Source: Burkholderia sp. 9120 (lineage in GTDB: Bacteria > Pseudomonadota > Gammaproteobacteria > Burkholderiales > Burkholderiaceae). From it: DNA of 64,000 nucleotides. Under the pieces are notes generated by a model. The model was given only the letters and a program-made list of their open reading frames with translations, was not told the DNA's origin and did not search any database. This document shows, piece after piece, positions 6,329-42,113 of the stretch (position 1 is the first letter of the stretch; every line of letters starts with the position of its first letter). The translations under genes were made by a program, and so were the position numbers. The DNA lies in contig NZ_JQNA01000002.1 in assembly GCF_000745015.1 (NCBI RefSeq), forward strand, positions 6,076,001 through 6,140,000, written 5' to 3'.

Positions 6329-6372
6329 AAAGGTGAGGAAATTCGGGACCCGAGAGGTGAGGATTTTCAGGG
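6329..6372 (+). repeat. Two iteron copies in the reverse orientation to the origin array
   Basis: Copies at 6329-6348 (AAAGGTGAGGAAATTCGGGA) and 6353-6372 (AGAGGTGAGGATTTTCAGGG), 24 bases apart, lie in the gap between the stops of the convergent kfrA-like and recombinase genes. They match the origin iterons but face the other way. The motif is plainly visible; function is inferred. Confidence 0.85.
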
Positions 6373-7449
6373 CTCGTTTCCTCCCCTTCTCCTTGTTAAA
6401 CGCCCGTCACGCCTAGGTTCAGGCAAGGGGTGCGCCACCGGATCCGGTTCATCGACTGCAACTGAATCTTGCTGATCCGCCCACGTTTGCCATGCCCGAT
6501 ACAACCGGTTCGCCGACACGGCTTGCACGAAGCCGAGCCATTGGCCGACCAGTTCCGCCTCCACGCCGCTCTCAAACAGATCCGCAGCAAAAGTGTTCCG
6601 CAAGGTTTGCGGACTGGCCCGTGAAGCACGCGACGCCGCGATGCCCGCTGCGTCGATCAACGCGTCGACCGCGCGCAGCATGGTGGCCTTGTGCATCGGC
6701 CGTCCGGAAGGCGACGCGGGAAAAACCAGGTTGCCGGCCAATTCCGACAGACGTCGCTCGGCGAGCCACGCGTCGAGGATGGCTGTGGCGAAGGGCGCAA
6801 GCCGCGTGCGCCGCATCAACATGGGATTCGCGGACTCGATCGTGACCCAGGGCGAACCGACATTCACGCAACTAACCGAAAGTGCACCTGCTTCGCCGGT
6901 CTTCAATCCACCGCCGAGAAACACGGCGATCAATGCGCGATCGCGCCGTTCTCGCCAGCGCTGCGCCGCGGACAAATCCGGCAACGGCGAAAACAGATGC
7001 GCAATCAGCGCGGTACGTTCAGCGTGGTTGAGAAACCCGGTGGGTTCATTGTCGCGCGCGTTTCGCCAGGCCGCTTCGCCATCCTGAGCGATGAAGCGAG
7101 CGGGGTTGGTCGACGCGGATTCGATTTCGCGTACATGATCCAGTACCCGTTCGATCAAGCGTAAATACCGGATACGTTGGGGTTTTCGAATCTCAAGGCC
7201 ACCAACAAATTCAGCGATGGTGTGCGTATCGACCGTAACGAGACTCTTCTGGCGTGCGGCCAGCCATTCGAGAAAGAGTCCCCATTGCGCCTGGTAGACT
7301 TCAGCGGACGAGCGCCGGAAATGTTGATTGGCGAGCCATGCGTCGAATGCGATTTGCGGATCGCGGCGCCAGTCTTCGCGCTGCTGGTCGAATAAATCGG
7401 ACGAGGGCGCGGGCCGTGGCACCGGGTCGGACAGATGAGGAGGTGACAT
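6367..7449 (-). CDS. Tyrosine recombinase/phage integrase family protein with degenerate active site
   Basis: 360 residues. An N-terminal SAM-like core-binding domain (~30-115) is followed by a catalytic-like domain (~140-335). Compared by eye with XerC, the first arginine box reads GGGLKTGE, so Arg is Lys183; the HxLRH box reads QTLRN, so His is Gln281 while Arg284 is kept; the LGH box reads LGF, so His is Phe307; Tyr317 is kept. Most of the catalytic set is therefore altered, and strand exchange is doubtful, although DNA binding may remain. The gene ends inside an iteron next to the origin, so it may be a resident part of the chromid rather than a mobile element. No attachment sites were found. 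Confidence 0.75.
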   Translation of the reverse strand: MSPPHLSDPVPRPAPSSDLFDQQREDWRRDPQIAFDAWLANQHFRRSSAEVYQAQWGLFLEWLAARQKSLVTVDTHTIAEFVGGLEIRKPQRIRYLRLIERVLDHVREIESASTNPARFIAQDGEAAWRNARDNEPTGFLNHAERTALIAHLFSPLPDLSAAQRWRERRDRALIAVFLGGGLKTGEAGALSVSCVNVGSPWVTIESANPMLMRRTRLAPFATAILDAWLAERRLSELAGNLVFPASPSGRPMHKATMLRAVDALIDAAGIAASRASRASPQTLRNTFAADLFESGVEAELVGQWLGFVQAVSANRLYRAWQTWADQQDSVAVDEPDPVAHPLPEPRRDGRLTRRRGGNEP

Positions 7450-7511
7450 GAGCTATCCTTCCGTTAGTTGCACATATTGTAGGTGGCAACTGCCGAAAAA
7501 TCAGCCCTGAG

Positions 7512-7910
7512 TCAGTCGCCCCAAGCTCGCGCGCGCTTCAGCGGAGCATCTTGCGCAACCGGTTGCGCAACGCGGCGTGCTGCTTCCTCATAGGCGCAGA
7601 CGGCGAACGCGAACACCGCGGGCAATGCGGTGGACGTACCGAAGTCCACGCCTTCGTCAGTCTCGGGATAAGGCAGATCGGACGGGCGCTGAAACAGCCC
7701 GAGCATGATTGCGTCGTGTCGGCTGGCGAACCCGAGGTCGGCCAGCGCCTCTGCCTCGACGGCATGCAGCAGCCGCCACGTGAGCGGCACCTCTTGCACG
7801 ATGTAGCGCGCGGCGATATTGCGCACAATGCGTTCGAGATCGCGCGCCGCGGTTTGATAGCGCAGCGCGGCCAGAGCGTGGTCGGCATGGTCGGTTGTCA
7901 GGTCGTTCAT
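7512..7910 (-). CDS. Hypothetical protein behind a LexA-type box
   Basis: 132 residues from the ATG at 7910, preferred over an upstream ATG at 7943 because GGAG lies about 8 bases before it and because the longer start would overlap the SOS box. The protein is soluble, largely helical and acidic to neutral (ALRYQTAARDLERIVRNIAA at the N-terminus). It has no signal peptide or membrane segment. I do not recognise the family. A CTGT-N8-ACAG site 24-43 bases before the start suggests LexA control and a role in the DNA damage response, but function is unknown. Confidence 0.75.
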   Translation of the reverse strand: MNDLTTDHADHALAALRYQTAARDLERIVRNIAARYIVQEVPLTWRLLHAVEAEALADLGFASRHDAIMLGLFQRPSDLPYPETDEGVDFGTSTALPAVFAFAVCAYEEAARRVAQPVAQDAPLKRARAWGD

Positions 7911-7933
7911 TGTCGGCTCCAGTCGATAGCCAA

Positions 7934-7953
7934 TACTGTACAAACATACAGTG
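7934..7953. promoter_or_regulatory. LexA (SOS) box
   Basis: CTGT (7936-7939), eight bases, ACAG (7948-7951), flanked by TA on one side and TG on the other. This fits the CTGT-N8-ACAG LexA consensus of beta- and gammaproteobacteria. It lies 24-43 bases upstream of the preferred start of the 132-residue protein, a normal position for repression. Confidence 0.75.
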
Positions 7954-8018
7954 TTTGGCGCAACCTCATCCGACGAACAGCCTGATCCGTCACGCGCGAC
8001 TAACGGTGAGCGGGCGCG

Positions 8019-8666
8019 TCAGCCGTGAATCACCACCAACAAGGCTTTCGCCTCACCCTTGCCGGCATTGCGGATGGCGTGCGGTTCGTCGGCGACATAA
8101 CGCGCGGTGTCCGCGGTCTTGAGCCGTTTCGTCGTACCGGCGGCCTCTATTTCAATCGATCCATGCAGCACGGTCAGGTGTTCGCGCGTGCCGGGTTCGT
8201 GCGCGTTCGACACCAACGCCCCGCCCGCTTGCAGCGTCAACTCGTACCACTCGAACTTGCCGGCCAACTCGATCGGCCCCCACACCCGCAGCTGATACTT
8301 GGCTTCGTGCCCGCTCAGCGTGGGAATGTCGTGGGGACCGGAGACGGCGATCGCCTCCGGCGCCTTTTGCGGCGCGAATAGCGAATCGAGACTGACACCG
8401 AGCGCATTGGTCAGCCGCCAGGCGACCGCGATAGTCGGATTCGCCTTGTCGCGCTCGATCTCAGATAGCATGGACTTCGACACGCCGGCCGCGCGCGACA
8501 GATCGTCGAGCGTCATGCGCCGTTCGGCGCGCAGACGCTGAATGTGTTCGCCGACACGCGGCGGCGCCGCAATCGCGGCCACCGGACCCGCGCCCGCAGC
8601 GCTCGCAGCAGGCGCTGCAGCGGCCGCGGCGCGTCGAATACCCGAACTTGCCATTTCCTGACCCAT
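8019..8666 (-). CDS. XRE family regulator with C-terminal cupin domain
   Basis: 215 residues. After a low-complexity Ala-rich leader of about 35 residues comes an XRE helix-turn-helix (TLDDLSRAAGVSKSMLSEIE, about residues 55-75). A cupin domain (~110-215) follows, the ligand-sensing architecture of the PuuR/SutR type. It is divergent from kbl-tdh with about 150 bases between the starts, so it is the probable regulator of threonine degradation here. The ligand is unknown. The exact start is uncertain; MASSG four codons downstream is an alternative. Confidence 0.88.
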   Translation of the reverse strand: MGQEMASSGIRRAAAAAAPAASAAGAGPVAAIAAPPRVGEHIQRLRAERRMTLDDLSRAAGVSKSMLSEIERDKANPTIAVAWRLTNALGVSLDSLFAPQKAPEAIAVSGPHDIPTLSGHEAKYQLRVWGPIELAGKFEWYELTLQAGGALVSNAHEPGTREHLTVLHGSIEIEAAGTTKRLKTADTARYVADEPHAIRNAGKGEAKALLVVIHG

Positions 8667-8680
8667 CGTTTAGAGTTGTT

Positions 8681-8733
8681 CGATATATCGGATTTTAGTT
8701 CGGAAAAACGAAAATATCCGCTAAAACTGACAG
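8681..8733. promoter_or_regulatory. Candidate operator between the XRE-cupin gene and kbl
   Basis: The AT-rich divergent promoter region contains a perfect palindrome CGATATATCG (8681-8690). It overlaps a longer imperfect inverted repeat, CGGATTTTAGTTC with GAAAATATCCG (8689-8720). Position and symmetry suggest the operator of the XRE-cupin regulator; no experimental motif is known to me. Confidence 0.4.
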
Positions 8734-8815
8734 CCGACTATAACAGGCCGCCTCGTGGTCGCACATGCCGAACACGCTGACACGGGCGCTCTCACCCATT
8801 TCAGGAGTCTGGTTC

Positions 8816-10015
8816 ATGCGTGACCAATATCTCGCCCATCTGCGCGGCACTCTGGAGCAGATCCGCGCCGACGGCTTTTACAAGAACGAACGCGTGATCG
8901 CCAGCCCGCAGTCAGCCGACATTCGTCTCGCCAACGGCGCGGACGTGTTGAATTTCTGCGCGAACAACTATCTGGGACTGGCGGACGACGCGCGTCTGAT
9001 CGAAGCCGCCAAGCAAGGCCTGGATCACGATGGTTTCGGCATGGCGTCGGTGCGTTTCATTTGCGGCACGCAAAGCGTGCACAAGGAACTCGAGTCGGCG
9101 CTTGCCGCGTTCCTGCAAACCGACGACTGTATTCTCTACTCCAGTTGTTTCGACGCAAATGGCGGCCTGTTCGAAACGCTGCTCGACGACAACGACGCGA
9201 TCATTAGCGACGAATTGAATCACGCGAGCATTATCGACGGCGTGCGGCTTTCGAAAGCGAAGCGCTTTCGCTACAAGAACAACGACCTCGCCGATCTCGA
9301 AGCGCGGCTGAAAGAAGCCGACGCCGCCGGCGCGCGCTTCAAACTGATCGCGACCGACGGCGTGTTCTCGATGGACGGCATCATCGCCGACCTCGCCGGC
9401 ATCTGCGACCTCGCCGATCGTTACGGCGCATTGGTCATGGTCGACGATTCGCACGCGGTGGGTTTCGTCGGCGAACACGGTCGCGGCACGCCGGAACATT
9501 GCGGGGTGCTGTCGCGCGTCGACATCATCACGGGGACGTTGGGTAAAGCGCTGGGTGGTGCATCGGGTGGCTACGTCGCGGCGCGCAAGGAAATCATCGA
9601 GTTGTTGCGCCAGCGTTCGCGTCCCTATCTGTTCTCAAACACGTTGACGCCAAGCATTGCCGCCGCGTCGCTGAAAGTGCTCGAACTGCTCGCGAGCGAC
9701 GAAGGCGCGCAACTGCGCGCACGCGTGCGCGAAAACGGCGCGCACTTCCGCGGCAAGATGAGCGCGCTTGGTTTCGCGCTCGTGCCCGGCGAACATCCCA
9801 TCATTCCGGTCATGCTCGGCGACGCGCAACTCGCGTCGAAGATGGCGGATGCGTTGTTGAAGGAAGGCGTCTACGTGATCGGCTTTTCGTTCCCGGTGGT
9901 GCCGAAGGGGCGCGCTCGCATTCGCACGCAGATGAGCGCCGCGCACACCACGGAGCAGATCGATCGCGCCGTAGATGCGTTCGCGCGCGTTGGCCGTGAA
10001 CTTGGCGTGATCTGA
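8816..10015 (+). CDS. kbl: Glycine C-acetyltransferase (2-amino-3-ketobutyrate CoA ligase)
   Basis: 399 residues from the ATG at 8816, the usual length for Kbl. AGGAG lies about nine bases before it, so it is preferred over the in-frame ATG at 8765. The enzyme is a PLP-dependent alpha-oxoamine synthase that converts 2-amino-3-oxobutanoate and CoA to glycine and acetyl-CoA. Visible signatures are [35 protein letters not shown] and the PLP lysine in [13 protein letters not shown]. It precedes tdh by 13 bases; together they form the two-step threonine-to-glycine pathway, probably under the divergent XRE-cupin regulator. Confidence 0.97.
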
Positions 10016-10028
10016 TCGGGAGGCGTAC

Positions 10029-11060: not shown

Positions 11061-11086
11061 ACTAACGCAACAGCAACACAACACTA

Positions 11087-11124
11087 AAACGCCCGCAGCG
11101 CGCTCACCCGCCTGCGGGCGTTTT
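11087..11124. terminator. Bidirectional intrinsic terminator (tdh / yceI-like)
   Basis: The perfect arms AAAACGCCCGCAG (11087-11099) and CTGCGGGCGTTTT (11112-11124) carry flanking A- and T-tracts, so the hairpin can work on both strands. It lies between the convergent tdh and YceI-family genes and overlaps the last codons of the latter. Confidence 0.85.
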
Positions 11125-11766: not shown

Positions 11767-11839
11767 GTCGTTCGTTCCGGTTGACCGATCATGAGCAAGA
11801 TAGCAGGTCGCGTCCTTCATCCGCAAAACACATCAACAC

Positions 11840-11868
11840 TTGACGAAGGAGAATGATCGTTCTACTCT
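11840..11868 (+). promoter_or_regulatory. Candidate promoter with TetR-type operator
   Basis: TTGACG (11840-11845) and TACTCT (11863-11868) are 17 bases apart. The near-palindrome AGAATGATCGTTCT (11850-11863) sits between them and resembles the GAACGATCGTTC sites of several TetR-family repressors. Initiation about seven bases after the -10 would fall on the TetR start codon, giving a leaderless or nearly leaderless mRNA. Prediction only. Confidence 0.5.
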
Positions 11869-11874
11869 TCGCAC

Positions 11875-12567: not shown

Positions 12568-12585
12568 CTGAAGTGAGGAAACATC

Positions 12586-14387: not shown

Positions 14388-17300
14388 GTGAACAGATCCA
14401 GTCACACCGAATTGCAAGCATTGACCGCACCCCAACTTGAGATGTGGTTTGCGCAACAACTCGCTCCGGAAAACCCTCGATTCGACGTTTGTTTTTATCT
14501 GGAGATTCATGGGCCGGTCGATACCGTTGTCTTCGGGCAGGCTTTACAGCAATTCCTTTCTGAAGCCGAGGCGCTGCACCTACGTTTCGTCGATACGGCT
14601 GGCGGCCCGATGCGGAAACTCATCGGGCCGCCCCTGTTGTCATTCGATTGTGTCGATCTGTCCGGCGACGCCGCTCCGTTCCAGGCGGCGCTTCACGCAA
14701 TGCGGGTCGACGCCTCGACTGTTTTCGACCTCGCCGAAGGACCACTCTTCAAGTACGCCCTGTTCAAGCTGGATAGCCAGCATTTTCTCTGGTATCAGCG
14801 CTACCACCACATTGCACTCGACGGCGCCAGCATTCCGCTTGCGACGCACCGGGTCGGAGCGATCTATTCGGCGTTAATGCGGGAGCGTCCGATTGCGGCG
14901 GCGAACTTTGCGACGCTCGACGTGTTGCTGCAGAACGATGCCGCGTACCGGCGCTCTGCCCGCTACGCAAGTGATCGCGGCTATTGGCGTGATTACGTCG
15001 CTGAATTGGCCGGCGCAACGACGATGACAGGCGGCCCGCCTGATACGGGCGGTCTGTTCCGGCGACGTTCGATCGAGTTGTCGCAGTCTTTGACGGCGGC
15101 GCTGGCGGCCGCTGAAACACCGTTCTGCAAATGGCCACAGTTATTCACCGCGATCGTGGCCGCCTACATGTTGCGAATGGCTAATCTTGGGAGCGGTGTT
15201 TTCGACTTCCCGATTGCCGCGCGGGCGAAGGACACGCGCGCAACGCCCGGGATGTTCGCCAACGTGGTGCCGCTGAAGGTGTCGATGTCGACTGACGACA
15301 CACTGGCCACGCTGACCCAGCGTGTCGATAGCGAGATATTCAGACACCTGAAGCACCAGTATTTCCGTGGCAAGGACATCCGGCACATGCTGGGCGCAGC
15401 CGCGGCGCCGATTTTCGGCCCTCGGATCAATATCGTCCCGCTCGACGATTCGTGGCGTTTCGACGGCTATCCGGCCACATTGCATGCGCTGTCGAACGGC
15501 CTCGTCAACGATTTCGCGGTGACGGTAATGGGGCGGCCGGGCTCTCCCGGCTTCGTGTTGCATGTCGACGCCAATACGAATCTGTATGACGACGCCAGCG
15601 TCGCGGCGCATGGTCGACGATTGCGGCAATTCATCGAGAGCGTGCTCGCCGATCCGCAACAACCCCTCAGCCGCATCGGTCTGCTCGGGCACGATGAAAG
15701 GCGTCTTCTGCTCGACACCTGGAATGCCACATCGCGGCCCTATCCGGACCAGCTTTGCATTCATCAACTCGTCCAGCGCCAGGCTGACCGTCATCCCGAT
15801 GCCGTTGCGATCAGAGTCGGCAACGAGTCGCTCAGCTATGCCACCCTCGACGCACACGCCAACCAGCTAGCCCGTCACCTGCTCGACCTGGGCGTCGCGC
15901 CCGAGACCCGCGTTGCCCTTTGCGCGCAGCGCACGCCCGCGCTCGTTGTTGCGATGCTCGCCATTGTCAAAGCCGGCGGTGCGTACGTCCCACTGGATCC
16001 CGTCTCTCCCGGATCGCGCCTCGTCCACATCGTCCAAGACGCCGCGCCTGCAATGCTGATTGCCGACCGGGCCGGATGTTCCGCCTTCGGCGACCTATTG
16101 CCCAGCACGCTCCCGCTCATCAATCTCGACGCCGAAACGCCCTGCTGGGCCGAGCAGTCGAAGTCCCCGCTCAGGTTGGATGGCCGTGAAGCCACCGGGC
16201 TCGCCTACGTGATCTATACCTCGGGTTCCACCGGTCTGCCGAAGGGAGTCATGGTCGAGCATCGGCAGCTCGTCAATCTGGTCTGCTGGCATATTGGGCG
16301 CTTCGGTCTGCGGCCCGGATGCGCCAGCACCGCCACGGCGGGCCTGGCCTTCGACGCCACCGCCTGGGAGATCTGGCCTGTTCTCGCCAGCGGCGCCACC
16401 TTGCTGCTGCCGCCGCCGGGCCTGGCCGATCCTGCCGCGATGCTCCACTGGTGGCGGGATCAACCGGTCGATACCGCGTTCCTCGTTACGCCGCTGGCAC
16501 TGCTCGCGATCGACGCCGGTCTGCCTCGCAGGCTGCGCCGCTTGCTGGTCGGTGGCGACCGCCTTGCGCAGCGTCCCGCCGCGCTGCCCGAGGCCGTCGA
16601 ACTGGTCAACAACTACGGCCCCACCGAAACGACCGTGGTCGCCACATCGGGCATTGTCAGCTCGGGCGACACCGTGCCGACCATCGGCAAGCCGATCGCG
16701 AACACCCGCATCTATCTGCTGGATGCACAGTACGAACCGGTGCCACTGGGGGCCGTGGGTGAGCTATACATCGGTGGCGCGGGCGTGGCGCGCGGCTATC
16801 TGAACCAGCCGGAATTAACCGCGCAACGCTTCCTGCGCGATCCGTTCGCCGGTGCGCCCGACGCCCGGATGTACCGCACCGGCGATCTCGCCCGCTATCT
16901 GCCGGACGGCAACCTGGTGTTCCTTGGGCGCAATGACGAGCAGATGAAGATCCGGGGTTTCCGGATCGAACCGGGCGAGATCGAGGTCCAGCTTGCGACT
17001 CATCCCGAGGTGCGGGAGGCGGTCGTGCTCGCGCGGGTCGATCAACCCGGCGAAGCGCGCCTCGTCGGCTACGTCACGCTGCACGATGGCGCGACAGCCG
17101 GCACCGGACTGCCGGGCGTGCTGCGTGCCCACCTCGAGCGCCGGCTGCCGGACTACATGGTCCCTTCCGCCTTCGTTCACCTCGAGCGCTTGCCGCTCAC
17201 GCCGAACGGCAAGCTCGACCGCAAGGCGCTGCCTGCGCCGCTGGACGACGCGTTCAGCCTGGAGCAGTACGCCGCGCCGCAAGGCGAGATCGAAACCATG

Positions 17301-20300
17301 CTGGCCACTCTCTGGCAGGCATTCCTCGGCATTGAACGTGTCGGCCGGCACGACAACTTCTTTGCGCTGGGCGGGCACTCCATTCTCGCGGCACGTCTGG
17401 TGGCGCGTCTCGGCGCGGCGTTCGACAAGGAATTACCTTTGCGCTGCGTCTTCGATGGCCCGACCATCGCGCAGCTTGCGGCCGCCGCGGCCGCGAGTTC
17501 CGCGTCGGTGAGCCGCGCGCCCATCGTGGCGGTGGATCGTCACGGCGAGCTACCACTCTCGTTTGCCGAAGAGCGGGCGGTGGCGCTCGAAACGTCGTCG
17601 ACGAGCACCGGGATTCTCAATTCTTCGTGCATCTTCCGGTTGTCTGGCAGGCTACGTCGTGACTGGCTTGAGCAGGCAATAGCATCGGTTGTCGCACGGC
17701 ATGAAATTCTTCGCACCCGCTACGCTGCGGATCCAGACAGCGGCGCATTCTGCCCGGTGATCGACGCGCCGACGAACTTCCGGCTGGCTATCCGGCCGGT
17801 CGACGCGCTCGAACCGGACGGTCTGCGCGCCGCGCAGACGGAGGCCGCCGTGATGCCCGACTGTTTCCGCGGGCCGCTATTTCGCGCGACGTTGTTCGTC
17901 GAACAGGACGTAGACGGCGAACACGGCGAACACGTCGACCGCGCGCTTCTCGTGATCGGCGTCCATCACATCGCGATCGATGCGATCTCGTGGACGATTG
18001 TCTGGCGCGACATCGCGCGCGCCTATCAGGCTCTGCGTGCTGGCCATCTGCCGAATCATGCGCCCGAGCCGATCCAGTACCGCGACTACGCGGCCTGGCA
18101 ACGACGACAATTGAGCACGGAACGGCTGGCGCAACTGCGGCGGCACTGGCGCGACAAGCTGACCGGCGCGCCGGTCTGCCTGAACCTGCCGTTCGACCGC
18201 GCGCGTCCTGCCGTCGTGACGGACCGCGCCGGGCGAATCGGTCTTGAGCTACCGGCCGAGCTGAGCCGAAGCGTCCGCCGAACCGCGTCGTCGTTGCGGC
18301 TGACACCGTTCGTCGTGCTCGAGACCCTGCTGGCGATTCTGTGCAGCCGCCTCGCGCACAGCCGCGACGTCGTGATCGGCACCGTGACCGAGGGCCGCAA
18401 CGCACTCTCTACCGAGAACGTCGTGGGGCTGTTCGTCAATACGATCCCGCTGCGCCATACGATCCAACCGTCCGCTTCGATCCAGAGCCATTTGCTGCGA
18501 GCGTCGGAGGAACTGCTGATTGCGCTGGAGCACGACGCACTTCCTTTCCCGGAGATCGTCTCCGCCGTCAATCCGGTGCGGCTGGCTTCTCACGATCCGC
18601 TGTTTCAGGTGTTCTGCCAGTTACAGCCGGGCGCTGGCGAAACCGAGGCGACGCTCGCGGGCGTGTCGGTCGACGCAGTGCCACGCGAGAATCCCGGCCG
18701 CGGCGCGGATCTCGCCATCGTGTTCCAGCACGCGGACGATGTCTTGAAAGCGGAAGTCGCCTACAGCGTCGATCTGTTCGATCACGCGAGCGTGGAAGCC
18801 ATCGTCGCGCTCTATCTGACGTTGATTTCACAGGCGATGCGCGATCCGGCGGCATCGGTCGATCGGCTCTGGGATGCGTGCGTCGCATTGACCCGCGCGT
18901 CTGCGCACCGTGTGGCGCTGAACAGGCTGATCGACCGCCCGCCGTCCGCCACGGGTGCATGGTATGGACTGTCGCCGGCCCAGCAGGCTGTCTGGATGCA
19001 GGAACAGGCGTCGCCGCCGGGCTCGTCGTATTTCTCGCTGGCGGTGATGCGCTGCGCACCCAAGGTCGACCGCGGCCGGCTGGAAGCCTCTGCGCGCGGG
19101 CTGATCACGCAAATCCAATCGCTCCGGCTGGAATGGACCGATAGCGGATTGCAGCGGGAGACCCCGGTGCCCACCACCCGCTTTGCGAGCTTCGCCGACA
19201 GGGCGGCACTCGCGCCGGATGCGCAATTGCAGGCGGTGTACGACTGGCACCATGAACTGAACGACCGGCGTGGCGATCAATCGAGCGACATCGCGGTGTT
19301 TCACTGGTCCGATTGCGCCGTGGTCGCGCTCCGCTCACACCATATGCTGAACGACGGGTGGTCCGCACTGCGCGCATTCGAGCGCGTCGCGAAGAACTAT
19401 GGACAACTCGAACGCGATCCTGCGCATGCATTCGAACCGGATCGCGGATTTCTCGACACGCTGACACTGGAGCGCGGCTACCTGGATTCGCCCGAACATG
19501 CGCGTGACGCGGCGTTCTGGCAGAGCGCCTGCCGCGCCTTCGAGCGCCCGGCGCTGGTGACGTTACTGGCCGACCGGCCGTATGCGACGCATGCGCCACG
19601 TCGCATCGCGTCGCTGCGCCGGCCACTGCCGGCGACGCTGCAAGTCGCGCTGGCGCGGGCCGCGGATACCTTGTCGCTGACGCTGTCGGAATGCCTGACT
19701 GCATTGACCGCGCTGTACCTTGCCCGCGTCGGCGGCGAAAACGAGGTCGCGTTCGGCGTGCCGCTTCTGAATCGGCCCCGGGAAGCGCTCGATATTCCTG
19801 GTCAGTTCGCCAAGGTGATGGTGGTTGGCGCATCGTTCGATCCCGCCGCCGATACGCTAGCGGATGCAATCCAGCGCGTCTGCCGCGCGCACCGGAAAGT
19901 GCTGCGGCACGGCCGCTATCCGCTCAGCGAACTGGTGCGGCGCCATGGGTTCGATCCGCGCCACGCCGAGGTCAGCATCAACACGTTGTTTCTGCGGCGA
20001 AGCGTCGAGGTTGCCGGGGCGCCGACCCAGGTACGATGGCTGAGCGGGCCAGAAAGCGGCCTGTCGTTTCTCTACACGCAGTTCGGCCGCGCCGCGCCGA
20101 TCGATCTTGAACTGCGCTTCAACGACGCGCTGTTCGACACCGCGACGATCTCGCATCACGCGAACCGGCTAATGCACTATCTCGGCAACGCGTGCGCCGG
20201 CCTGATGTTCCCCGTCGGTGACATCGCACTTTTAGCGGCGGACGAGCGCCGGCTGTTACTCCAGACATGGAACGCGACGGAAGCCCCTTATCCTGACGAG

Positions 20301-22859
20301 CTATGCCTGCACCGGTTGTTCGAGCAACTGGTCGAGTTCACCCCGGATGTCACTGCGCTCGTAGGCGACGATGCGACGCTCAGCTACGCAGCGCTCAATG
20401 CACGTGCCAACCAGCTCGCGCACCAGCTGATCGCGCAAGGCGTGCGGCCCGATAGCCGCGTCGCGATCTGTGTTGAGCGCGGCGTGATGATGATCGTCGG
20501 CCTGCTCGCGATCCTGAAGGCCGGCGGAGCTTATGTGCCGCTCGACCCGGACTATCCGCGCGAACGGATCGGGCACATCCTCGCCAACGCCGAGCCGACG
20601 CTGCTGTTGATCGACCGCGCGGGCCGGCGCGCGCTCGACGATCTGCTGCCGCCCGCCGTTGCGCACATCGATCTCGATGCGTCGCAGCCCGCCTGGTCGG
20701 CTCGCCCCGACACCGATCCGGTCGTGCCGGGTCTCACCTCGCGCCATCTGGCCTACGTGATCTATACCTCGGGTTCCACCGGTCTGCCGAAGGGAGTCAT
20801 GGTCGAGCATCGGCAGCTCGTCAATCTGGTCTGCTGGCATATCGGGCGCTTCGGTCTGCGGCCCGGATGCGCCAGCACCGCCACGGCGGGCCTGGCCTTC
20901 GACGCCACCGCCTGGGAGATCTGGCCTGTTCTCGCCAGCGGCGCCACCTTGCTGCTGCCGCCGCCGGGCCTGGCCGCCGATCCTGCCGCGATGCTCCACT
21001 GGTGGCGCGATCAACCGGTCGATACCGCGTTCCTCGTTACGCCGCTGGCACTGCTCGCGATCGACGCCGGTCTGCCTCGCAGTCTGCGCCGCTTGCTGAT
21101 CGGTGGCGACCGCCTTGCGCAGCGTCCCGCCGCACTGTCCGAGTCGGTCGAACTGGTCAACAACTACGGCCCCACCGAAACGACCGTGGTCGCCACATCG
21201 GGCATTGTCAGCTCGGGCGACACCGTGCCGACCATCGGCAAGCCGATCGCGAACACCCGCATCTATCTGCTGGATGCACAGTACGAACCGGTGCCGCTGG
21301 GGGCCGTGGGCGAGCTATACATCGGTGGCGCGGGCGTGGCGCGGGGCTATCTGAACCAGCCGGAATTAACCGCGCAACGCTTCCTGCGCGATCCGTTCGC
21401 CGGTGCGCCCGACGCCCGGATATACCGCACCGGCGATCTCGCCCGCTATCTGCCCGATGGCAACCTGGTGTTCCTTGGGCGCAATGACGAGCAGGTGAAG
21501 ATCCGGGGTTTCCGGATCGAACCCGGGGAGATCGAGGTCCAGCTTGCGACTCATCCCGAGGTGCGGGAGGCGGTCGTGCTCGCGCGGGTCGATCAACCCG
21601 GCGAAGCGCGCCTCGTCGGCTACGTCACGCTGCACGATGGCGCGACAGCCGACGCCGGACTGCCGGGCGTGCTGCGTGCCCACCTCGAGCGCCGGCTGCC
21701 GGACTACATGGTCCCTTCCGCCTTCGTTCACCTCGAGCGCTTGCCGCTCACGCCGAACGGCAAGCTCGACCGCAAGGCGCTACCTGCGCCGCTGGACGAC
21801 GCGTTCAGCCTGGAGCAGTACGCCGCGCCGCAAGGTGAGATCGAAACCATGCTGGCCACTCTCTGGCAGGCATTCCTCGGCATTGAACGTGTCGGCCGGC
21901 ACGACAACTTCTTTGCGCTCGGCGGGCACTCGCTGATGGCCGCTCGTCTGCTGAACCAGGTGCGCGTGACATTCGGTAGGGACGTCTCGCTGGGTGCGTT
22001 ATTCGAGGCGCCGTCCATCGCCCTGTTCGCTGAAAGACTCGAGGCCCACGCAGTCCCACGGCAAGATTTTGGGGCGCTGAATGTTCTGCTGCCGTTGCGC
22101 ACCCAAGGACAGCATCCACCGTTGTTCTGCATCCACCCAGGCGGCGGGTTCGGCTGGCCTTATGCGGGATTGCTGCGCTTTCTACCCGATCGTCCGCTAT
22201 ATGCGCTGCAGGCGCGCAGGTTAAGCGAGCCGACTCGCCGCTTCGACACGATCGAAACGATTGCTGCTGACTATCTCGAACAGATCCGCTCGGTGCAGCC
22301 CACTGGCCCTTACCGCCTGTTGGGTTGGTCGCTCGGTTGTCACATCGCGCATGCGGTCGCCACCTTGCTGCAGCATCAGAATGAGCGGGTCGAGCAACTC
22401 ATCATGTTCGACAGCTATCCGATCCCTCCCGCAGTCGAGATGCCTCTCCCGCCGACCGACCTGCAAATCGCGAAGGTGCTGTTTCAGTCGCTGTCCGATA
22501 CACCGTGGGAGGATGCTGACATGCCGTCGTCGCCCGATGCGATCCGGCAACAGCTCAGTCGCGGAAGGGAGAGTGTCCACGGGCTGGGTGACGAAGTCTT
22601 CAATGCGATCTTCGACGAGTTAAAGGCCACGCCGGCGCTGATCTGCCAGTTCAGACCGGGCGTATTCGACGGCGATTTGCTGTTCTTCCGTGCCACCCGC
22701 ACCGAACCGGACAATGCCTTGCTGGGCGAGTCAACCGCGTGGCAACCGTACATCGGTGGACATATCGTGACCCACGACATTGCGTGTCTGCACGAGAAGA
22801 TGTTGCACCCGGAAGCCCTGGCGCTAATCGGCCCGCTAGTGGCCGCCGCGCTGCGATAG
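14388..22859 (+). CDS. Dimodular non-ribosomal peptide synthetase, C-A-T-C-C-A-T-TE
   Basis: 2823 residues from a GTG start behind AGAAGGAAA. Domains: C1 (~10-430; HHIALDG, His140/141), A1 (~455-950; YTSGSTG at 610), T1 (Ser998), C2 (~1045-1490; HHIAIDA, His1193/1194, final Gly of the motif is Ala), C3 (~1520-1960; HHMLNDG, His1651/1652), A2 (~1970-2470; YTSGSTG at 2126), T2 (Ser2515) and a thioesterase (~2560-2823; GWSLG, Ser2648). C1 and C3 look EntF-like (MFANVVPLK in C1); C2 looks like an ordinary peptide-bond C domain (FVNTIPLR). Aligned by eye with the PheA pocket, both A domains read DAWLLGNVV plus Lys, close to a known leucine code. C1 has no upstream carrier, so it may acylate the first residue. 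No MbtH, transporter, phosphopantetheinyl transferase or tailoring gene lies beside it. The product is probably an N-acylated dipeptide or its cyclic form. Confidence 0.93.
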   Translation: MNRSSHTELQALTAPQLEMWFAQQLAPENPRFDVCFYLEIHGPVDTVVFGQALQQFLSEAEALHLRFVDTAGGPMRKLIGPPLLSFDCVDLSGDAAPFQAALHAMRVDASTVFDLAEGPLFKYALFKLDSQHFLWYQRYHHIALDGASIPLATHRVGAIYSALMRERPIAAANFATLDVLLQNDAAYRRSARYASDRGYWRDYVAELAGATTMTGGPPDTGGLFRRRSIELSQSLTAALAAAETPFCKWPQLFTAIVAAYMLRMANLGSGVFDFPIAARAKDTRATPGMFANVVPLKVSMSTDDTLATLTQRVDSEIFRHLKHQYFRGKDIRHMLGAAAAPIFGPRINIVPLDDSWRFDGYPATLHALSNGLVNDFAVTVMGRPGSPGFVLHVDANTNLYDDASVAAHGRRLRQFIESVLADPQQPLSRIGLLGHDERRLLLDTWNATSRPYPDQLCIHQLVQRQADRHPDAVAIRVGNESLSYATLDAHANQLARHLLDLGVAPETRVALCAQRTPALVVAMLAIVKAGGAYVPLDPVSPGSRLVHIVQDAAPAMLIADRAGCSAFGDLLPSTLPLINLDAETPCWAEQSKSPLRLDGREATGLAYVIYTSGSTGLPKGVMVEHRQLVNLVCWHIGRFGLRPGCASTATAGLAFDATAWEIWPVLASGATLLLPPPGLADPAAMLHWWRDQPVDTAFLVTPLALLAIDAGLPRRLRRLLVGGDRLAQRPAALPEAVELVNNYGPTETTVVATSGIVSSGDTVPTIGKPIANTRIYLLDAQYEPVPLGAVGELYIGGAGVARGYLNQPELTAQRFLRDPFAGAPDARMYRTGDLARYLPDGNLVFLGRNDEQMKIRGFRIEPGEIEVQLATHPEVREAVVLARVDQPGEARLVGYVTLHDGATAGTGLPGVLRAHLERRLPDYMVPSAFVHLERLPLTPNGKLDRKALPAPLDDAFSLEQYAAPQGEIETMLATLWQAFLGIERVGRHDNFFALGGHSILAARLVARLGAAFDKELPLRCVFDGPTIAQLAAAAAASSASVSRAPIVAVDRHGELPLSFAEERAVALETSSTSTGILNSSCIFRLSGRLRRDWLEQAIASVVARHEILRTRYAADPDSGAFCPVIDAPTNFRLAIRPVDALEPDGLRAAQTEAAVMPDCFRGPLFRATLFVEQDVDGEHGEHVDRALLVIGVHHIAIDAISWTIVWRDIARAYQALRAGHLPNHAPEPIQYRDYAAWQRRQLSTERLAQLRRHWRDKLTGAPVCLNLPFDRARPAVVTDRAGRIGLELPAELSRSVRRTASSLRLTPFVVLETLLAILCSRLAHSRDVVIGTVTEGRNALSTENVVGLFVNTIPLRHTIQPSASIQSHLLRASEELLIALEHDALPFPEIVSAVNPVRLASHDPLFQVFCQLQPGAGETEATLAGVSVDAVPRENPGRGADLAIVFQHADDVLKAEVAYSVDLFDHASVEAIVALYLTLISQAMRDPAASVDRLWDACVALTRASAHRVALNRLIDRPPSATGAWYGLSPAQQAVWMQEQASPPGSSYFSLAVMRCAPKVDRGRLEASARGLITQIQSLRLEWTDSGLQRETPVPTTRFASFADRAALAPDAQLQAVYDWHHELNDRRGDQSSDIAVFHWSDCAVVALRSHHMLNDGWSALRAFERVAKNYGQLERDPAHAFEPDRGFLDTLTLERGYLDSPEHARDAAFWQSACRAFERPALVTLLADRPYATHAPRRIASLRRPLPATLQVALARAADTLSLTLSECLTALTALYLARVGGENEVAFGVPLLNRPREALDIPGQFAKVMVVGASFDPAADTLADAIQRVCRAHRKVLRHGRYPLSELVRRHGFDPRHAEVSINTLFLRRSVEVAGAPTQVRWLSGPESGLSFLYTQFGRAAPIDLELRFNDALFDTATISHHANRLMHYLGNACAGLMFPVGDIALLAADERRLLLQTWNATEAPYPDELCLHRLFEQLVEFTPDVTALVGDDATLSYAALNARANQLAHQLIAQGVRPDSRVAICVERGVMMIVGLLAILKAGGAYVPLDPDYPRERIGHILANAEPTLLLIDRAGRRALDDLLPPAVAHIDLDASQPAWSARPDTDPVVPGLTSRHLAYVIYTSGSTGLPKGVMVEHRQLVNLVCWHIGRFGLRPGCASTATAGLAFDATAWEIWPVLASGATLLLPPPGLAADPAAMLHWWRDQPVDTAFLVTPLALLAIDAGLPRSLRRLLIGGDRLAQRPAALSESVELVNNYGPTETTVVATSGIVSSGDTVPTIGKPIANTRIYLLDAQYEPVPLGAVGELYIGGAGVARGYLNQPELTAQRFLRDPFAGAPDARIYRTGDLARYLPDGNLVFLGRNDEQVKIRGFRIEPGEIEVQLATHPEVREAVVLARVDQPGEARLVGYVTLHDGATADAGLPGVLRAHLERRLPDYMVPSAFVHLERLPLTPNGKLDRKALPAPLDDAFSLEQYAAPQGEIETMLATLWQAFLGIERVGRHDNFFALGGHSLMAARLLNQVRVTFGRDVSLGALFEAPSIALFAERLEAHAVPRQDFGALNVLLPLRTQGQHPPLFCIHPGGGFGWPYAGLLRFLPDRPLYALQARRLSEPTRRFDTIETIAADYLEQIRSVQPTGPYRLLGWSLGCHIAHAVATLLQHQNERVEQLIMFDSYPIPPAVEMPLPPTDLQIAKVLFQSLSDTPWEDADMPSSPDAIRQQLSRGRESVHGLGDEVFNAIFDELKATPALICQFRPGVFDGDLLFFRATRTEPDNALLGESTAWQPYIGGHIVTHDIACLHEKMLHPEALALIGPLVAAALR

Positions 22860-22878
22860 GGTCGATCGTCGAGACAAC

Positions 22879-23264
22879 GGTGAGGAATTCCAGGAGACGA
22901 GGCCGCTGCCGTCAATGGTGAGGAATTCCAGGAGACGAGGCCGCTGCGTCAACGGTGAGGAATTCCAGGAGGTGAGGCCGCTGCCGTCAATGGTGAGGAA
23001 TTCCAGGAGGTGAGGTCACTGCCATTAACGGTGAGAATTTCCAGGAGGCGACGCCAGTGGGATCAGAGGTGAGCTGTTCCAGGAGATCGTGCGCAGGTCG
23101 CTGATCGGTGAGTCGATGCGAGAACGGAACAGCACCTATGACGTCTGGAAAAGCCTCCGAAGGTGGGGCGTTCCAGGAGATCGACTGCAAAGGTGAGCGA
23201 TTCCAGGAGGTGAGAAAGTGTCGTGTCGAATCCGCACCGTCGATATGGTGAGGATTTCCAGGGA
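22879..23264 (+). repeat. 38-bp tandem array and scattered variants of the iteron core
   Basis: Units begin with GGTGAGGAATTCCAGGAG at 22879, 22917, 22954, 22992, 23030 and 23068, a period of 37-38 bases. The rest of the unit (GCCGCTGCCGTCAA-like) is also conserved in the first four. More divergent copies begin at 23107, 23162, 23192 and 23247. The 18-base head has the same length and the same GGTGAG start and GGAG end as the origin iterons, but reads CCAGGAG instead of TCGGGAG. The array fills the gap between the NRPS stop and the alkylation-repair gene. It has no spacers of CRISPR type and encodes no protein. Confidence 0.85.
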
Positions 23265-23331: not shown

Positions 23332-23352
23332 AAAGGTGAGGATATTCGGGAG
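23332..23352 (+). repeat. Iteron-like 21-mer
   Basis: A full match to the origin iteron (AAAGGTGAG, GATAT, TCGGGAG), just downstream of the 38-bp array and in the same orientation as it. A partial copy (GAGGTGAGAATATCG) follows at about 23358. Confidence 0.88.
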
Positions 23353-23397: not shown

Positions 23398-23418
23398 AAA
23401 GGTGAGGGAATTCGGGAG
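23398..23418 (+). repeat. Iteron-like 21-mer
   Basis: A full match (AAAGGTGAG, GGAAT, TCGGGAG), 66 bases after the previous full copy and the last member of this intergenic cluster. It is about 210 bases before the alkylation-repair gene. Confidence 0.88.
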
Positions 23419-30813: not shown

Positions 30814-30834
30814 AAAGGTGAGGTTTTTCGGGAG
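30814..30834 (+). repeat. Iteron-like 21-mer
   Basis: A full match (AAAGGTGAG, GTTTT, TCGGGAG) 50 bases after the CheY stop, about 26 kb from the origin and in the same orientation as all copies right of the kfrA-like gene. Confidence 0.88.
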
Positions 30835-31953: not shown

Positions 31954-31974
31954 CGTCACATCGAAACGGGATTA

Positions 31975-33276: not shown

Positions 33277-33341
33277 TTGTTTGCATGAACGCACCGGCCG
33301 TCGTGATGGCGGCCGGGCTGCCGAATGTCTTCATCGCGGTC

Positions 33342-33362
33342 AAAGGTGAGGATATTCGGGAG
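33342..33362 (+). repeat. Iteron-like 21-mer
   Basis: A full match (AAAGGTGAG, GATAT, TCGGGAG), identical to the copy at 23332, in the gap between the porin and LysR stop codons. Confidence 0.88.
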
Positions 33363-33397
33363 CCGACGCGCGTCGGGCTATCCGTGAGTCCATCACG

Positions 33398-35946: not shown

Positions 35947-35956
35947 GGAGAGCAGG

Positions 35957-36736: not shown

Positions 36737-36801
36737 AGCGACGACGCCACTCGCCCAACGCACCGCCCAACGCACCGCCCCATACATGCACAGGACCCAC
36801 C

Positions 36802-38529: not shown

Positions 38530-39434
38530 GTCATGGCGATTTGCCTGCGACGCCGCGCGTCGGCTTCTGCGGAATCGGCAAGATGGGCGAGCCGATGGCC
38601 TGGCGGCTGCTTGCGGCCGGCCATGCGTTGCGGGTGTGGAACCGTTCGTCGGCGAAGTTGGCGCAGCTTGAGGCGCATGGCGCGGTAGTCGATGAATCGC
38701 CCAGGCAGTTGGCCGCGCACAGCGACGTCGTGATGCTGTGCCTCGGCGACGCCGACGCTGTCGAAGACGTCGTGTTCGGCGCTGAAGGACTCGCGCGGGC
38801 GGTCAACGCGCCGCGCTTTCTGATCGACCACTCGACCCTCGCACCCAGGCAGGCGCGCCACTTCGCGCAGCGCTGGCATGAGATGAGCGGCGGTGCGTGG
38901 ATCGACGCGCCCGTGTCGGGCGGCACGGCAGGCGCCGCGGCGGGCACGCTCGCGATCTTCTGCGGTGGCGGCGCGCCGGAGATCGCTGCGGTCGAACCGC
39001 TGTTGCGTGCTTATGCGTCGCGTGTGACGCGCATGGGCGCGAGCGGTGCCGGACAAGCGACCAAACTCGCCAATCAGGCGATCGTCGTGACGACCATTGC
39101 GGGGATTGCCGAAGCCTGCGTGCTCGCACAACGCACGGGTATCGACGCCGCGTCGATGCCCGCCGCGTTGGGCGGCGGTTGGGCCGATTCGGTGCTGCTG
39201 CAAACCTTGCTGCCGCGCATGCTCACGCCGCCGTCGAATCCGTCGGGCACGATCAGGACCATGTTGAAGGATCTCGACGCGGTCGCCGAGTTGGCGCGCG
39301 AGTCGCATGCGCCGCTGCGGGCAGTCGGCGAAGTGCGCAAGCTATTGCAGGAAGCCATGGAGCAAGGACTCGGCGACGAGGACATTTCGCAGATCGTCCG
39401 CGTTCTGCTCAAGCAGTCCATGGGAGAAGGGTGA
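38526..39434 (+). CDS. Beta-hydroxyacid dehydrogenase (3-hydroxyisobutyrate / tartronate semialdehyde reductase family)
   Basis: 302 residues. The N-terminal Rossmann fold has [17 protein letters not shown]; the substrate loop is [18 protein letters not shown]; the catalytic Lys is in [14 protein letters not shown]. These are the family hallmarks. Its ATG overlaps the dehydratase stop (ATGA), indicating tight co-translation. It probably acts on the aldehyde or keto product of the dehydratase step. Confidence 0.92.
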
Positions 39435-39516
39435 GCGGGCGCGGGTCGAAAAAATAACTCAACGCCAAAGCGGCGAACAGGGCGGCACGCCCTGCAAAGC
39501 TGCCCAGGAGACAAGC

Positions 39517-40830
39517 ATGTCCAGTTTTGAATCGTCCAGTCTGTCGCACGATATGCCGGTGCGGCTCACGCGCTCGCAGTGGCGCATGATCCTGCTCGCG
39601 AGTCTCGGCGGCGCGCTTGAGTTCTACGATTTCGTCGTCTACGGCATCTTCGCGCAGTTCATCGGCCGCGCTTTTTTTCCGATGCAGAACCCGATCGTCG
39701 GCTTGATGCTGTCGTTCGCGGTGTTTGCAATCGGCTATCTGGCACGGCCCGTCGGCGGCATCGTGCTCAGCTATTTCGGCGACCGGTACGGACGCCGGCG
39801 CGTGTTCATCGTGTCGGTGATCGTCGTGTCGATGTGCACGATCGGCATGGGTATCGTGCCGACTTACGCGACCTGGGGCATCGGCGCCACCCTGCTGATG
39901 ATCCTGCTGCGACTGGTGCAGGGCTTCTGTCTGGGCGGCGAGCTGCCTGGCTCGATCACCTATGTGGTCGAAACGGTGCCGCGGCGCGCGGGCTTTGTCT
40001 GCGGCGTCGTGTTTTTCTGCGTGAATTCCGGCGTGCTGCTGGCGGCGGCCGTCAATCTGTCGGTGCATAGCCTGCTCACCGGCGACGATGTCGCAGCCTA
40101 CGGTTGGCGCATCGCGTTTCTGTTCGGCGGCGCGATCGGCCTGTTGAGTTTCTGGCTGCGTCGCAAGCTCGAAGAAACCCCTGCGTTTGCAGAGATGAAG
40201 CATCTGGCGGCCAAACATCCGCTGTCGGAACTGTTGCGTGAGCATTGGCAGCCGGTGCTGCTCGGCATCGGCACGACGGCGGTGGTGGCCGCGTTCAACG
40301 GCTTGCTGTTCGCGCACATGCCAGCCTATCTCGACCGGGTGCTGCACTACGATCCGCGGCGCGTGGCGATCGGCCAGAACGTCGGGCTTGCGGTGGTGTC
40401 GACGGGCATTCTGTTGTCCGGCTGGCTCGGCGATAAATTGCCGAGGCGCTATGTGCTGCGCGTGGGCTCGTTGCTGCTGATGGTGTTGAGCTACCCCTTC
40501 TATCTCGCGGCAAGCCGCCATAGTGTCGACGTCGTGCTGCTGCTCGCGCTGGCGGGCGTGGCCGCGTGCCTCGCCAACGGAACGTTCGCCTGCATCATCG
40601 CCGACATGTTCCCGACGCGCGTGCGGTTCAGCGGCGTCGCGTTAACCTTCAACATCAGCTTCACAGTGTTTAGCGGCACGGCGCCGTTGATCGCGACGTG
40701 GCTGATTTCGTCGACGGGCAACGTCGTCGCGCCCGCGTATTTCATGGCGGCATGCGCGGCGCTCTCGCTGGCCGCAAGCTTTGGATTGAAAGCGGTGAGC
40801 GGCAAGATCGAACCGCGCTCACCGGCCTGA
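39517..40830 (+). CDS. MFS transporter, metabolite:H+ symporter type
   Basis: 437 residues from the ATG at 39517 behind CCAGGAG. Helix 1 begins LGGALEFYDFVVYGIFAQF, a signature of the MHS/ShiA-ProP branch, and the loop 2-3 motif is FGDRYGRRRVF. Relatives carry citrate, alpha-ketoglutarate, shikimate or betaine. It is a second importer in the same cluster, which may indicate more than one substrate or uptake of a product. Confidence 0.92.
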   Translation: MSSFESSSLSHDMPVRLTRSQWRMILLASLGGALEFYDFVVYGIFAQFIGRAFFPMQNPIVGLMLSFAVFAIGYLARPVGGIVLSYFGDRYGRRRVFIVSVIVVSMCTIGMGIVPTYATWGIGATLLMILLRLVQGFCLGGELPGSITYVVETVPRRAGFVCGVVFFCVNSGVLLAAAVNLSVHSLLTGDDVAAYGWRIAFLFGGAIGLLSFWLRRKLEETPAFAEMKHLAAKHPLSELLREHWQPVLLGIGTTAVVAAFNGLLFAHMPAYLDRVLHYDPRRVAIGQNVGLAVVSTGILLSGWLGDKLPRRYVLRVGSLLLMVLSYPFYLAASRHSVDVVLLLALAGVAACLANGTFACIIADMFPTRVRFSGVALTFNISFTVFSGTAPLIATWLISSTGNVVAPAYFMAACAALSLAASFGLKAVSGKIEPRSPA

Positions 40831-40909
40831 CAAGGCGCGGCCCCACTTTCGTCAGGTCCACTGCCGTCGTGGTTTCTTACCTGGGTATGCAAATTACCCC
40901 AGCACCGCT

Positions 40910-40930
40910 AAAGGTGAGGGTTTGCGGGAG
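40910..40930 (+). repeat. Iteron-like 21-mer
   Basis: AAAGGTGAG, GGTTT, GCGGGAG; one base differs from the TCGGGAG end. First of a group of three within 170 bases. Confidence 0.85.
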
Positions 40931-40992
40931 TAGTCGGTTTGACACCTCCCGCGCCACGCCCAGCATGCCTTTGCGCCCTGCCCCTAAGCTCG

Positions 40993-41013
40993 AAAGGTGA
41001 GGGTTTTCGGGAG
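40993..41013 (+). repeat. Iteron-like 21-mer
   Basis: AAAGGTGAG, GGTTT, TCGGGAG; full match, 83 bases after the previous copy. Confidence 0.88.
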
Positions 41014-41057
41014 TTGGGCAAACCGCACCTTGCGCCTAACCCCGACCGCTCCGAATC

Positions 41058-41078
41058 AAAGGTGAGTATTTGCGGGAG
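41058..41078 (+). repeat. Iteron-like 21-mer
   Basis: AAAGGTGAG, TATTT, GCGGGAG; 65 bases after the previous copy. Confidence 0.85.
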
Positions 41079-41296
41079 CGTGTCCCGCCCGTCGGTGCGC
41101 GGCACGCGCGCAATCCCATATCACGTTCCAGATTGAAAGAGTTGGAAAGAAATTGCCAACCTTGGGGGCTGTTCCGCGTTTTGAGATGAGCCGCATACAG
41201 GGAAGATGGCGACGCGGACGACAAAGTCTGCGGCTTCGCTATACCTGCAAGCCGGACCCTGTCTCTGAAAAACGATCGTCTCCTGGAATCAGTTGG

Positions 41297-42043
41297 ATGA
41301 GTCAGCATATTCTTTTCGTTGGCGCCGATGCCGGCTTGACAGCCGTGGTAGGCGCATCGTTGCGCGGGCAAGGCTGCGGGGTGTCCGCACGTCCACCGGT
41401 CGTCGGTCTCAAGCACGTGGTCGAGATGGAGCGGCCGGCGTTGCTGGTGCTCGACATCTCCGCGCCGCATGGCGATGGGTTGGCGGTGTTGCGCGACCTG
41501 CGCCTGAGCGGTAACGACGTGCCGGTGATTCTGCTGTCGGCGGGCAGCAAGGCGATCGATCGGGTGATCGGTCTCGAACTGGGCGCCGACGATTTCATGA
41601 GCAAGCCCGCCGATCCCGCCGAACTGCTCGCCCGCATCCGCGTGCTACTAAGACGGCGCGGCGCGCTCGCGCCAGGCGCGCCGGAAACGCGGCCGCCTTA
41701 TCGCTTCGGCCGCTGCGAGCTGAACTTCTCCGCGCGCGAGTTGCATCGCGATAACGAGCGCTTCGCGCTGCGTAGTTCCGAGTTCGCGTTGCTGAAAATC
41801 TTCGTCAATCACGCGATGACCGTGCTCACACGCGTGCAGCTCAACGAGCAGCTACGCGGCAGTAGTGTGGTGCATCAAGGGCGCAGTCTCGATGTGTCGA
41901 TCTGGCGATTGCGTCGGCTGATCGAGATGGATCCTTCCGAACCGCGTTACGTGCAGACGGTGTGGGGACGCGGCTATGTGTTCGTGCCGCACGGCGAGAT
42001 CGGTGCGGCCGAGCGCGGCGCAATGGTCGCGCCCGGCGTGTGA
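41297..42043 (+). CDS. Orphan OmpR-type response regulator
   Basis: 248 residues from the ATG at 41297. Receiver (~3-118): phospho-acceptor Asp53 (LVLDISAPHGDG) and Lys (MSKPADPAELLARI) are present, but the acidic pair near residue 10 is reduced (FVGADAGL in place of a VDD type). DNA-binding winged helix (~140-232): RSSEFALLKIF and SLDVSIWRLRRLIE, then VQTVWGRGYVF. No histidine kinase gene adjoins it, so its partner is elsewhere or it acts without phosphorylation. It is bracketed by iteron-like sites on both sides (41058 and 42093). Confidence 0.9.
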   Translation: MSQHILFVGADAGLTAVVGASLRGQGCGVSARPPVVGLKHVVEMERPALLVLDISAPHGDGLAVLRDLRLSGNDVPVILLSAGSKAIDRVIGLELGADDFMSKPADPAELLARIRVLLRRRGALAPGAPETRPPYRFGRCELNFSARELHRDNERFALRSSEFALLKIFVNHAMTVLTRVQLNEQLRGSSVVHQGRSLDVSIWRLRRLIEMDPSEPRYVQTVWGRGYVFVPHGEIGAAERGAMVAPGV

Positions 42044-42092
42044 CGCGTGTATCTGGCCCGCGATCTGGCGTTAGCGGCGCCCGAATCCGCTC

Positions 42093-42113
42093 AAAGGTGA
42101 GTGTTTTCGGGAG
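42093..42113 (+). repeat. Iteron-like 21-mer, farthest copy from the origin
   Basis: AAAGGTGAG, TGTTT, TCGGGAG; in the gap between the convergent response regulator and SDR genes, about 37 kb from the origin array. No further copies were seen from here to 64000. Confidence 0.88.

Follow-up and report, generated by a model that had tools for sequence, protein, structure and literature searches.

The stretch of DNA considered here, a window of 64,000 nucleotides (C2:6076001-6140000) from the 8.46 Mb, two-contig genome of Burkholderia sp. 9120, carries the replication origin of a chromid, or secondary chromosome, together with copies of that origin's 21-bp repeat (iteron) that lie scattered well outside it. 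The initiator gene encodes a protein with both Rep_3 winged-helix domains, the Pfam curated cut-off being exceeded, and stands beside 14 direct-repeat copies with ≤2 mismatches; an iteron replicon is recognised here by Rep_3 winged-helix domains 1 and 2 and a cluster of ~19-22 bp direct repeats adjoining the rep gene, and both are present. Beyond the repeats lies a gene for a KfrA-like DNA-binding protein, and the two arms leaving the origin are referred to as the initiator side and the KfrA side. The scattered copies have the same motif as the origin iterons, are clustered on the KfrA arm, are conserved across species, lie between genes and match the consensus well. We lean towards regarding them as extra initiator-binding sites that would act as a brake on reinitiation in the manner of datA.

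The repeat reads AAAGGTGAG-N6-CGGGAG, with six variable bases at its centre. The original prediction, made from the letters of the window, had a middle of five, but an N5 spacing between the motif halves gave 0 matches in the window and was rejected. With N6 the window contains 37 matches at ≤3 mismatches, compared with a mean of 1.39 and a largest count of 5 in 100 shuffles, which confirms the claim that origin-type copies recur in intergenic gaps. Ten copies had been listed as intact; nine of these have 0-1 mismatch (Table 1), but in that at 6353, AGAGGTGAGGATTTTCAGGGC, a count by eye gave 4 mismatches, and it is for that reason treated as degenerate. Two strict copies stand 24-25 bp apart, 3.1-3.2 kb from the initiator, in genomes G049 and G026. 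The variant array with CCAGGAG ends was absent from the earlier list. The predicted lack of copies between 42.2 and 64 kb holds at ≤2 mismatches (0 copies in that part of the window), but the set resumes outside, with copies at 67.89, 67.94, 81.0, 113.8 and 114.2 kb on the window's scale. Twenty permuted patterns gave 0 matches in the same genome from ~17 kb outward, against 12 for the real pattern (≤1 mismatch). Origin and dispersed copies have centre preferences in common (position 14 is T in 0.99 and 1.00 of them, respectively), a comparison in which the dispersed set alone excludes CCAG copies, which make up 46 of the 153 non-origin copies at ≤3 mismatches. For the c2 origin iterons Du et al. 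2016 (PMC4948915) give the consensus ctCCCGAAAAacCTCACCTtt; the present 21-mer is its reverse complement, so that the consensus used here is not one fitted to the dispersed copies.

Distribution along the replicon was assessed with a strict core, AGGTGAG-N6-CGGGA, in the 18 near-complete genomes (≤5 contigs) among 58 genus genomes. Because dnaA and the chromid initiator share one contig in the window's genome, the only one in which the primary chromosome was identified (by dnaA), "chromid contig" denotes the initiator-bearing contig throughout. There were 359 strict copies, 125 of them in the origin cluster. Within 300 kb of the origin, 181 copies lay on the KfrA side (4-300 kb, plus copies of opposite orientation at <4 kb) and 8 on the initiator side, 3 of these 8 inside the initiator gene; a further 23 lay beyond 300 kb on the chromid contig and 22 on other contigs, whose loci were not compared for orthology, and a reversed control pattern gave 6 matches across the 18 genomes. 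Expressed as strict sites per Mb, the figures are ~33 for the KfrA-side 300 kb, 0.5 for chromid contigs beyond 300 kb, 0.25 for other contigs and 0.04 for the reversed control. The equal density elsewhere that would point to an ordinary repeat was not seen, and a polar repeat of the KOPS or Chi type, for which spread over the whole replicon is expected, was rejected on account of the fall beyond 300 kb. Sites of origin type outside the origin, on the same replicon and enriched near it, are what would be expected of a titration set. The orientation is opposite to that of the origin iterons in 146 of the 181 KfrA-side copies.

Named loci (the best 80 of 203, from Paraburkholderia, Caballeronia, Trinickia and Burkholderia records, with two species entered twice) were examined in flanks of up to 10 kb, some shorter; 584 kb of KfrA-side flank contained 121 sites, whereas 741 kb of initiator-side flank contained 4. 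In 73 of 79 loci a site of opposite orientation was present at 2.3-4.3 kb from the initiator, the distance at which the KfrA-like gene ends in the window. An iteron-like match in the orientation of the origin iterons also occurs within the initiator gene (1797-1817), with 42 such matches in the 80 loci, and coding constraint may account for them. In a survey of 120 genomes of the family the motif was plentiful in genera g1, g10, g12, g14 and g25 and in some of g8; in most other genera it stayed at the level of the control.

An obvious consideration is whether the one-sidedness is simply a by-product of gene order. In six relatives the KfrA side beyond ~11 kb is a gene mosaic, whereas the 20 kb on the initiator side is largely syntenic, and in the 7 genomes no copy at ≤2 mismatches was found in those 20 kb outside the initiator gene; since the syntenic flank is without copies, the explanation was rejected. 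One match with 3 mismatches, seen in 5 of the 7 genomes at approximately -15 to -18 kb, was set aside, as it lies inside a called gene in the window's genome, and it changes, on our reading, in codon steps.

Gene placement and synteny were read from a simple codon-usage gene caller that misses some genes. On that basis 123 of the 125 copies with ≤2 mismatches in the 7 genomes, CCAG variants included, are intergenic, compared with 77% of random positions being genic. Gaps between convergent genes, which account for 8% of intergenic bases, contain 31 copies, and gaps between divergent genes, with 13% of those bases, contain 8; in the window's genome the dispersed sites follow gene 3' ends. Comparison of 119 orthologous gaps with the six relatives gave 19 with sites in both genomes, 2 with sites only here, 0 only in the relative and 98 with neither (Fisher p 4e-20, uncorrected for the shared ancestry of the gaps). 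Relatives other than the close relative G022 are 0.81-1.00 identical at the sites and 0.37-0.82 at other gap bases, with two exceptions in which site identity is 0.52 (G027) and 0.62 (G020); in G022 one array copy was unaligned. Pairs spaced by 66 bp, as at 23332/23398, occur in nine relatives (G022, G045, G057, G020, G001, G042, G030, G037 and G014) and the 83/65 bp triple spacing recurs in four (G022, G045, G014 and G037), alignment having shown the gap to be the same for some of these only and, for the 66 bp pair, for G022 only. Among copies at ≤2 mismatches in the 7 genomes, the mean number of mismatches without CCAG variants is 0.76 for dispersed and 1.28 for origin copies, the dispersed mean being the lower one in all 7. 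Most sites stand out as conserved islands, and as judged from the alignments the dispersed sites are kept by selection in related bacteria, as sites of a titration set should be. Density and orthologous-gap conservation together support the central proposal of the original prediction, that of a selected, dispersed set of origin-type sites near the origin.

Two further groups of sites lie at greater distances. When one candidate pair was chosen per genome (21 loci), the two iterons were 257-365 bp apart and lay 3' of an H-NS-family gene (Pfam Histone_HNS) in 16 loci; for the remaining 5 (G052, G011, G024, G034 and G026) the gene was sought only at the chosen pair. This H-NS-linked pair is 34 to 272 kb from the origin on the KfrA side in the 15 of the 16 loci that were measurable. 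Both of its iterons stand out from diverged intergenic DNA, although the second was not aligned as an iteron in G044 and the second copy in G049 ends CAGGAG. Outside the genus, 8 of 10 g12 genomes, 2 of 3 g14 genomes and 2 each of g25, g10 and g8 were compared, and the pair recurs in other genera, also on the opposite side of the origin. A site follows within 5 bp of the orthologous H-NS-family gene (56-61% identical) in 8 of 8 g12 loci, with the block on the initiator side, ~133-160 kb from the origin, in 7 of them and on the KfrA side at ~247 kb in G132, the side having been read from the initiator in 3 loci and from iteron orientation in 5. The pair follows an H-NS-family gene in 2 of 2 g14 loci; in g25 there is a single site 1.5 kb downstream in one genome and a pair 2.9 kb downstream in another; in the 2 g10 loci, which are Caballeronia-type, no H-NS-family gene was found and the sites are still beside the same neighbouring genes; and in the stretches fetched from 2 g8 genomes there was no H-NS-linked locus. 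A far inverted pair lies ~0.9-2.0 Mb from the origin where it could be placed; of 20 genus genomes (G034 is outside the 20), 11 have it and 2 have part of it, and in the other 7 it was not found. The notion that it holds a fixed relative position, ~0.8 of the arm, was dropped, as the locus is elsewhere in G044, G031 and G027.

Table 1. Features of the chromid origin and of the dispersed 21-mers in the window.
Feature	Position	Strand	Basis or recurrence
Rep_3-family chromid initiator with winged-helix domains 1 and 2	1602..2948	-	Rep3_N and Rep3_C (Pfam) exceed cut-off
Origin iteron cluster; its 21-mers point towards the initiator gene	3067..4705	-	14 copies at ≤2 mismatches
KfrA-like DNA-binding protein	5089..6294	+	Pfam KfrA_N
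Dispersed site directly 3' of the KfrA-like gene	6329..6349	+	motif scan, 0-1 mismatch
Degenerate second copy	6353..6373	+	sequence, 4 mismatches
Variant array, CCAGGAG ends, spacing mostly 37-38 bp	22876..23209	+	similar variants in G022, G037, G045, G057, G027
Dispersed site, pair member 1 (66 bp spacing)	23332..23352	+	motif scan, 0-1 mismatch
Dispersed site, pair member 2	23398..23418	+	motif scan, 0-1 mismatch
Dispersed site 3' of response-regulator receiver gene	30814..30834	+	0-1 mismatch; conserved in G022, G037, G045
Dispersed site in the convergent gap between the porin gene and its neighbour	33342..33362	+	0-1 mismatch; conserved in G022, G037
Dispersed site, triple member 1 (spacings 83 and 65 bp)	40910..40930	+	motif scan, 0-1 mismatch
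Dispersed site, triple member 2	40993..41013	+	motif scan, 0-1 mismatch
Dispersed site, triple member 3	41058..41078	+	motif scan, 0-1 mismatch
Dispersed site between convergent genes, 3' end of short-chain dehydrogenase gene	42093..42113	+	0-1 mismatch; conserved in G022, G037

Relatives of the initiator were found in 58 of 58 genus genomes searched, and its profile gave a weak match in the PDB to the pi protein (2nra, E 0.005). The product of 443-1498 is ParB-like (Pfam), and directly before its gene, at 420-433, is the palindrome TTTATGCGCATAAA, which we take to resemble a chromid parS. The mosaic stretch before the variant array includes a 2823-aa protein of non-ribosomal peptide synthetase type (14388-22859; condensation, AMP-binding and thioesterase). 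In G000, C2 (6,576,898 bp) carries dnaA (at 2.54 Mb), both ParB_N matches and the chromid initiator, and C1 (1,878,734 bp) carries none of these, a layout that reflects a chromosome-chromid fusion, an exchange or a misassembly; G024, with 6.68 of ~6.7 Mb in one contig, also looks fused. Third-replicon initiators with iterons of their own were encountered (G052 C3:171193, G009 C14:42854). Such initiators are 33-36% identical, and in 4 genomes the c3-type motif was mostly at the origin with few distant copies, too sparse to call; an identical distant copy, ~38-42 kb from that origin cluster, is common to two species.

A number of systems are known in which initiator sites lie away from the origin. 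In Vibrio, six RctB sites in 74 kb, ~40 kb from ori2, titrate RctB and inhibit ori2, according to passages in two papers (PMC3937223, PMC6090056). The likeness to these distant sites that the original prediction proposed fits as an analogy, in that both would be extra initiator-type sites on the chromid itself, close to the origin and copied early. The present set differs in having a Rep_3 initiator, 21-bp iterons and ~10 strict sites on one arm (18-genome mean), in its recurrence in several genera and in its H-NS-linked and far pairs. The parallel with crtS that had been drawn at the same time is unsupported; crtS too takes part in chromid replication control from a distance but, as described in passages of PMC6090056, it is on chromosome 1, is unlike iterons and triggers replication. 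No crtS-like site was identified here in an iteron-based search, which a crtS unlike an iteron would escape. There is also a likeness to datA and the dispersed DnaA boxes of E. coli, extra-origin initiator sites that limit reinitiation, as summarised in PMC3937223. datA promotes DnaA-ATP hydrolysis, and we know of nothing like this for the present initiator. The c2 iterons of B. cenocepacia have the same consensus, and the S1 Table legend of Du et al. 2016 (PMC4948915), among the passages available, mentions copies elsewhere plus a second iteron cluster 140 kb anticlockwise, so that distant copies have in fact been mentioned for a Burkholderia chromid, where the original prediction knew of no description. 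No further treatment of their map, conservation, orientation or function was seen among the top-ranked papers of the literature search or in those passages of Du et al., and what is added to the sentence in the legend is a wide and testable map of the sites with their conservation, orientation and placement.

In the reading towards which we lean, the chromid's own Rep_3 initiator would occupy the dispersed 21-mers, passage of the fork would double them, and the doubled sites would soak up free initiator. Initiator held on the dispersed sites may also pair with origin-bound initiator (handcuffing), and the origin would thereby be blocked from refiring within the same cycle. Most of the sites would be copied within minutes of initiation; at a fork speed of 33 kb/min, taken from the passages of Du et al. 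2016 (PMC4948915), those up to 39 kb would be doubled in ~1.2 min and the H-NS-linked pair (111 kb) in ~3.4 min. We infer the initiator to be the binder because in three g12 genomes the motif is unchanged while the initiator is 89-90% identical to that of the window and the KfrA-like protein only 59-61%. Binding would presumably be tight, and by analogy with the systems above a negative effect on initiation is most likely.

A number of observations weigh against this. Titration alone does not explain the one-arm bias or the recurring orientation and spacing, and replication reaches the far inverted pair too late for early titration. When CCAG variants are counted, the better consensus match of the dispersed copies shrinks (mean mismatches 1.02 compared with 1.28 at the origin) and it fails in G045, leaving the dispersed mean lower in 6 of 7 genomes. 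A fixed number of sites was considered as a sign of dose control and dropped, for the KfrA-side count per genome is Poisson-like (mean 10.1, variance 9.5, 18 genomes), and the KfrA side has only 3 sites in G034 and 4 in G026.

The best placed of the alternatives, though in our estimate a rather unlikely one, is that the initiator, with or without the KfrA-like protein, bridges the origin and the dispersed sites and folds one arm into an origin domain, the purpose being segregation or unequal fork behaviour and any effect on initiation secondary. The one-arm placing, the prevailing orientation and the 66 and 83/65 bp spacings are more in keeping with a shaped complex than with a simple sink, and the second cluster 140 kb anticlockwise in the legend of Du et al. 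(PMC4948915) also speaks for this reading. Spacing and orientation could, however, persist through descent, and in 7 of 8 g12 loci it is the opposite arm that carries the H-NS-linked cluster. More doubtful is an elaboration of the titration scheme into a gauge of replication progress, in which the strong one-arm sites would register the early passage of the fork and prevent refiring, while the H-NS-linked pair would be regulatory and the far pair would report late replication; the H-NS-linked locus would then retain its sites when its block crosses the origin, and the chromid would gauge its state of replication by its own initiator sites and not by a site on chromosome 1.

It seems improbable that the KfrA-like protein, rather than the initiator, occupies the dispersed sites. 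The near-origin sites share an arm with the KfrA-like gene; the first directly follows that gene in the window, and 73 of 79 named loci have a site at a comparable distance. The dispersed sites, however, equal the origin iterons, and in Rep_3 replicons it is the initiator that binds the iterons; the divergence of KfrA in g12 beside an unchanged motif tells in the same direction. A shade less probable still is a transcriptional use, with the sites as operators or 3'-end elements of neighbouring genes: they do stay by H-NS-family and short-chain dehydrogenase genes through rearrangement, but in the window's genome they lie at gene 3' ends, over 7 genomes it is the convergent and not the divergent gaps that are enriched, and two Caballeronia-type loci retain sites where no H-NS-family gene was found. 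That they are relics of a larger origin cluster broken up by gene insertion, with no present role, as the mosaic KfrA side and a variant array near 23 kb resembling decayed iterons might suggest, is very improbable, since relics would decay, whereas most sites are conserved islands and, in 6 or 7 of the 7 genomes, fit the consensus no worse than the origin copies do.

The brake on reinitiation that we favour bears on how secondary chromosomes outside Vibrio hold replication to once per cycle, and the candidate control sites, numerous and conserved, have now been mapped with exact positions. If the reading is true, the RctB and Rep_3 initiator families would have converged on near-origin titration as plasmids became chromosomes.

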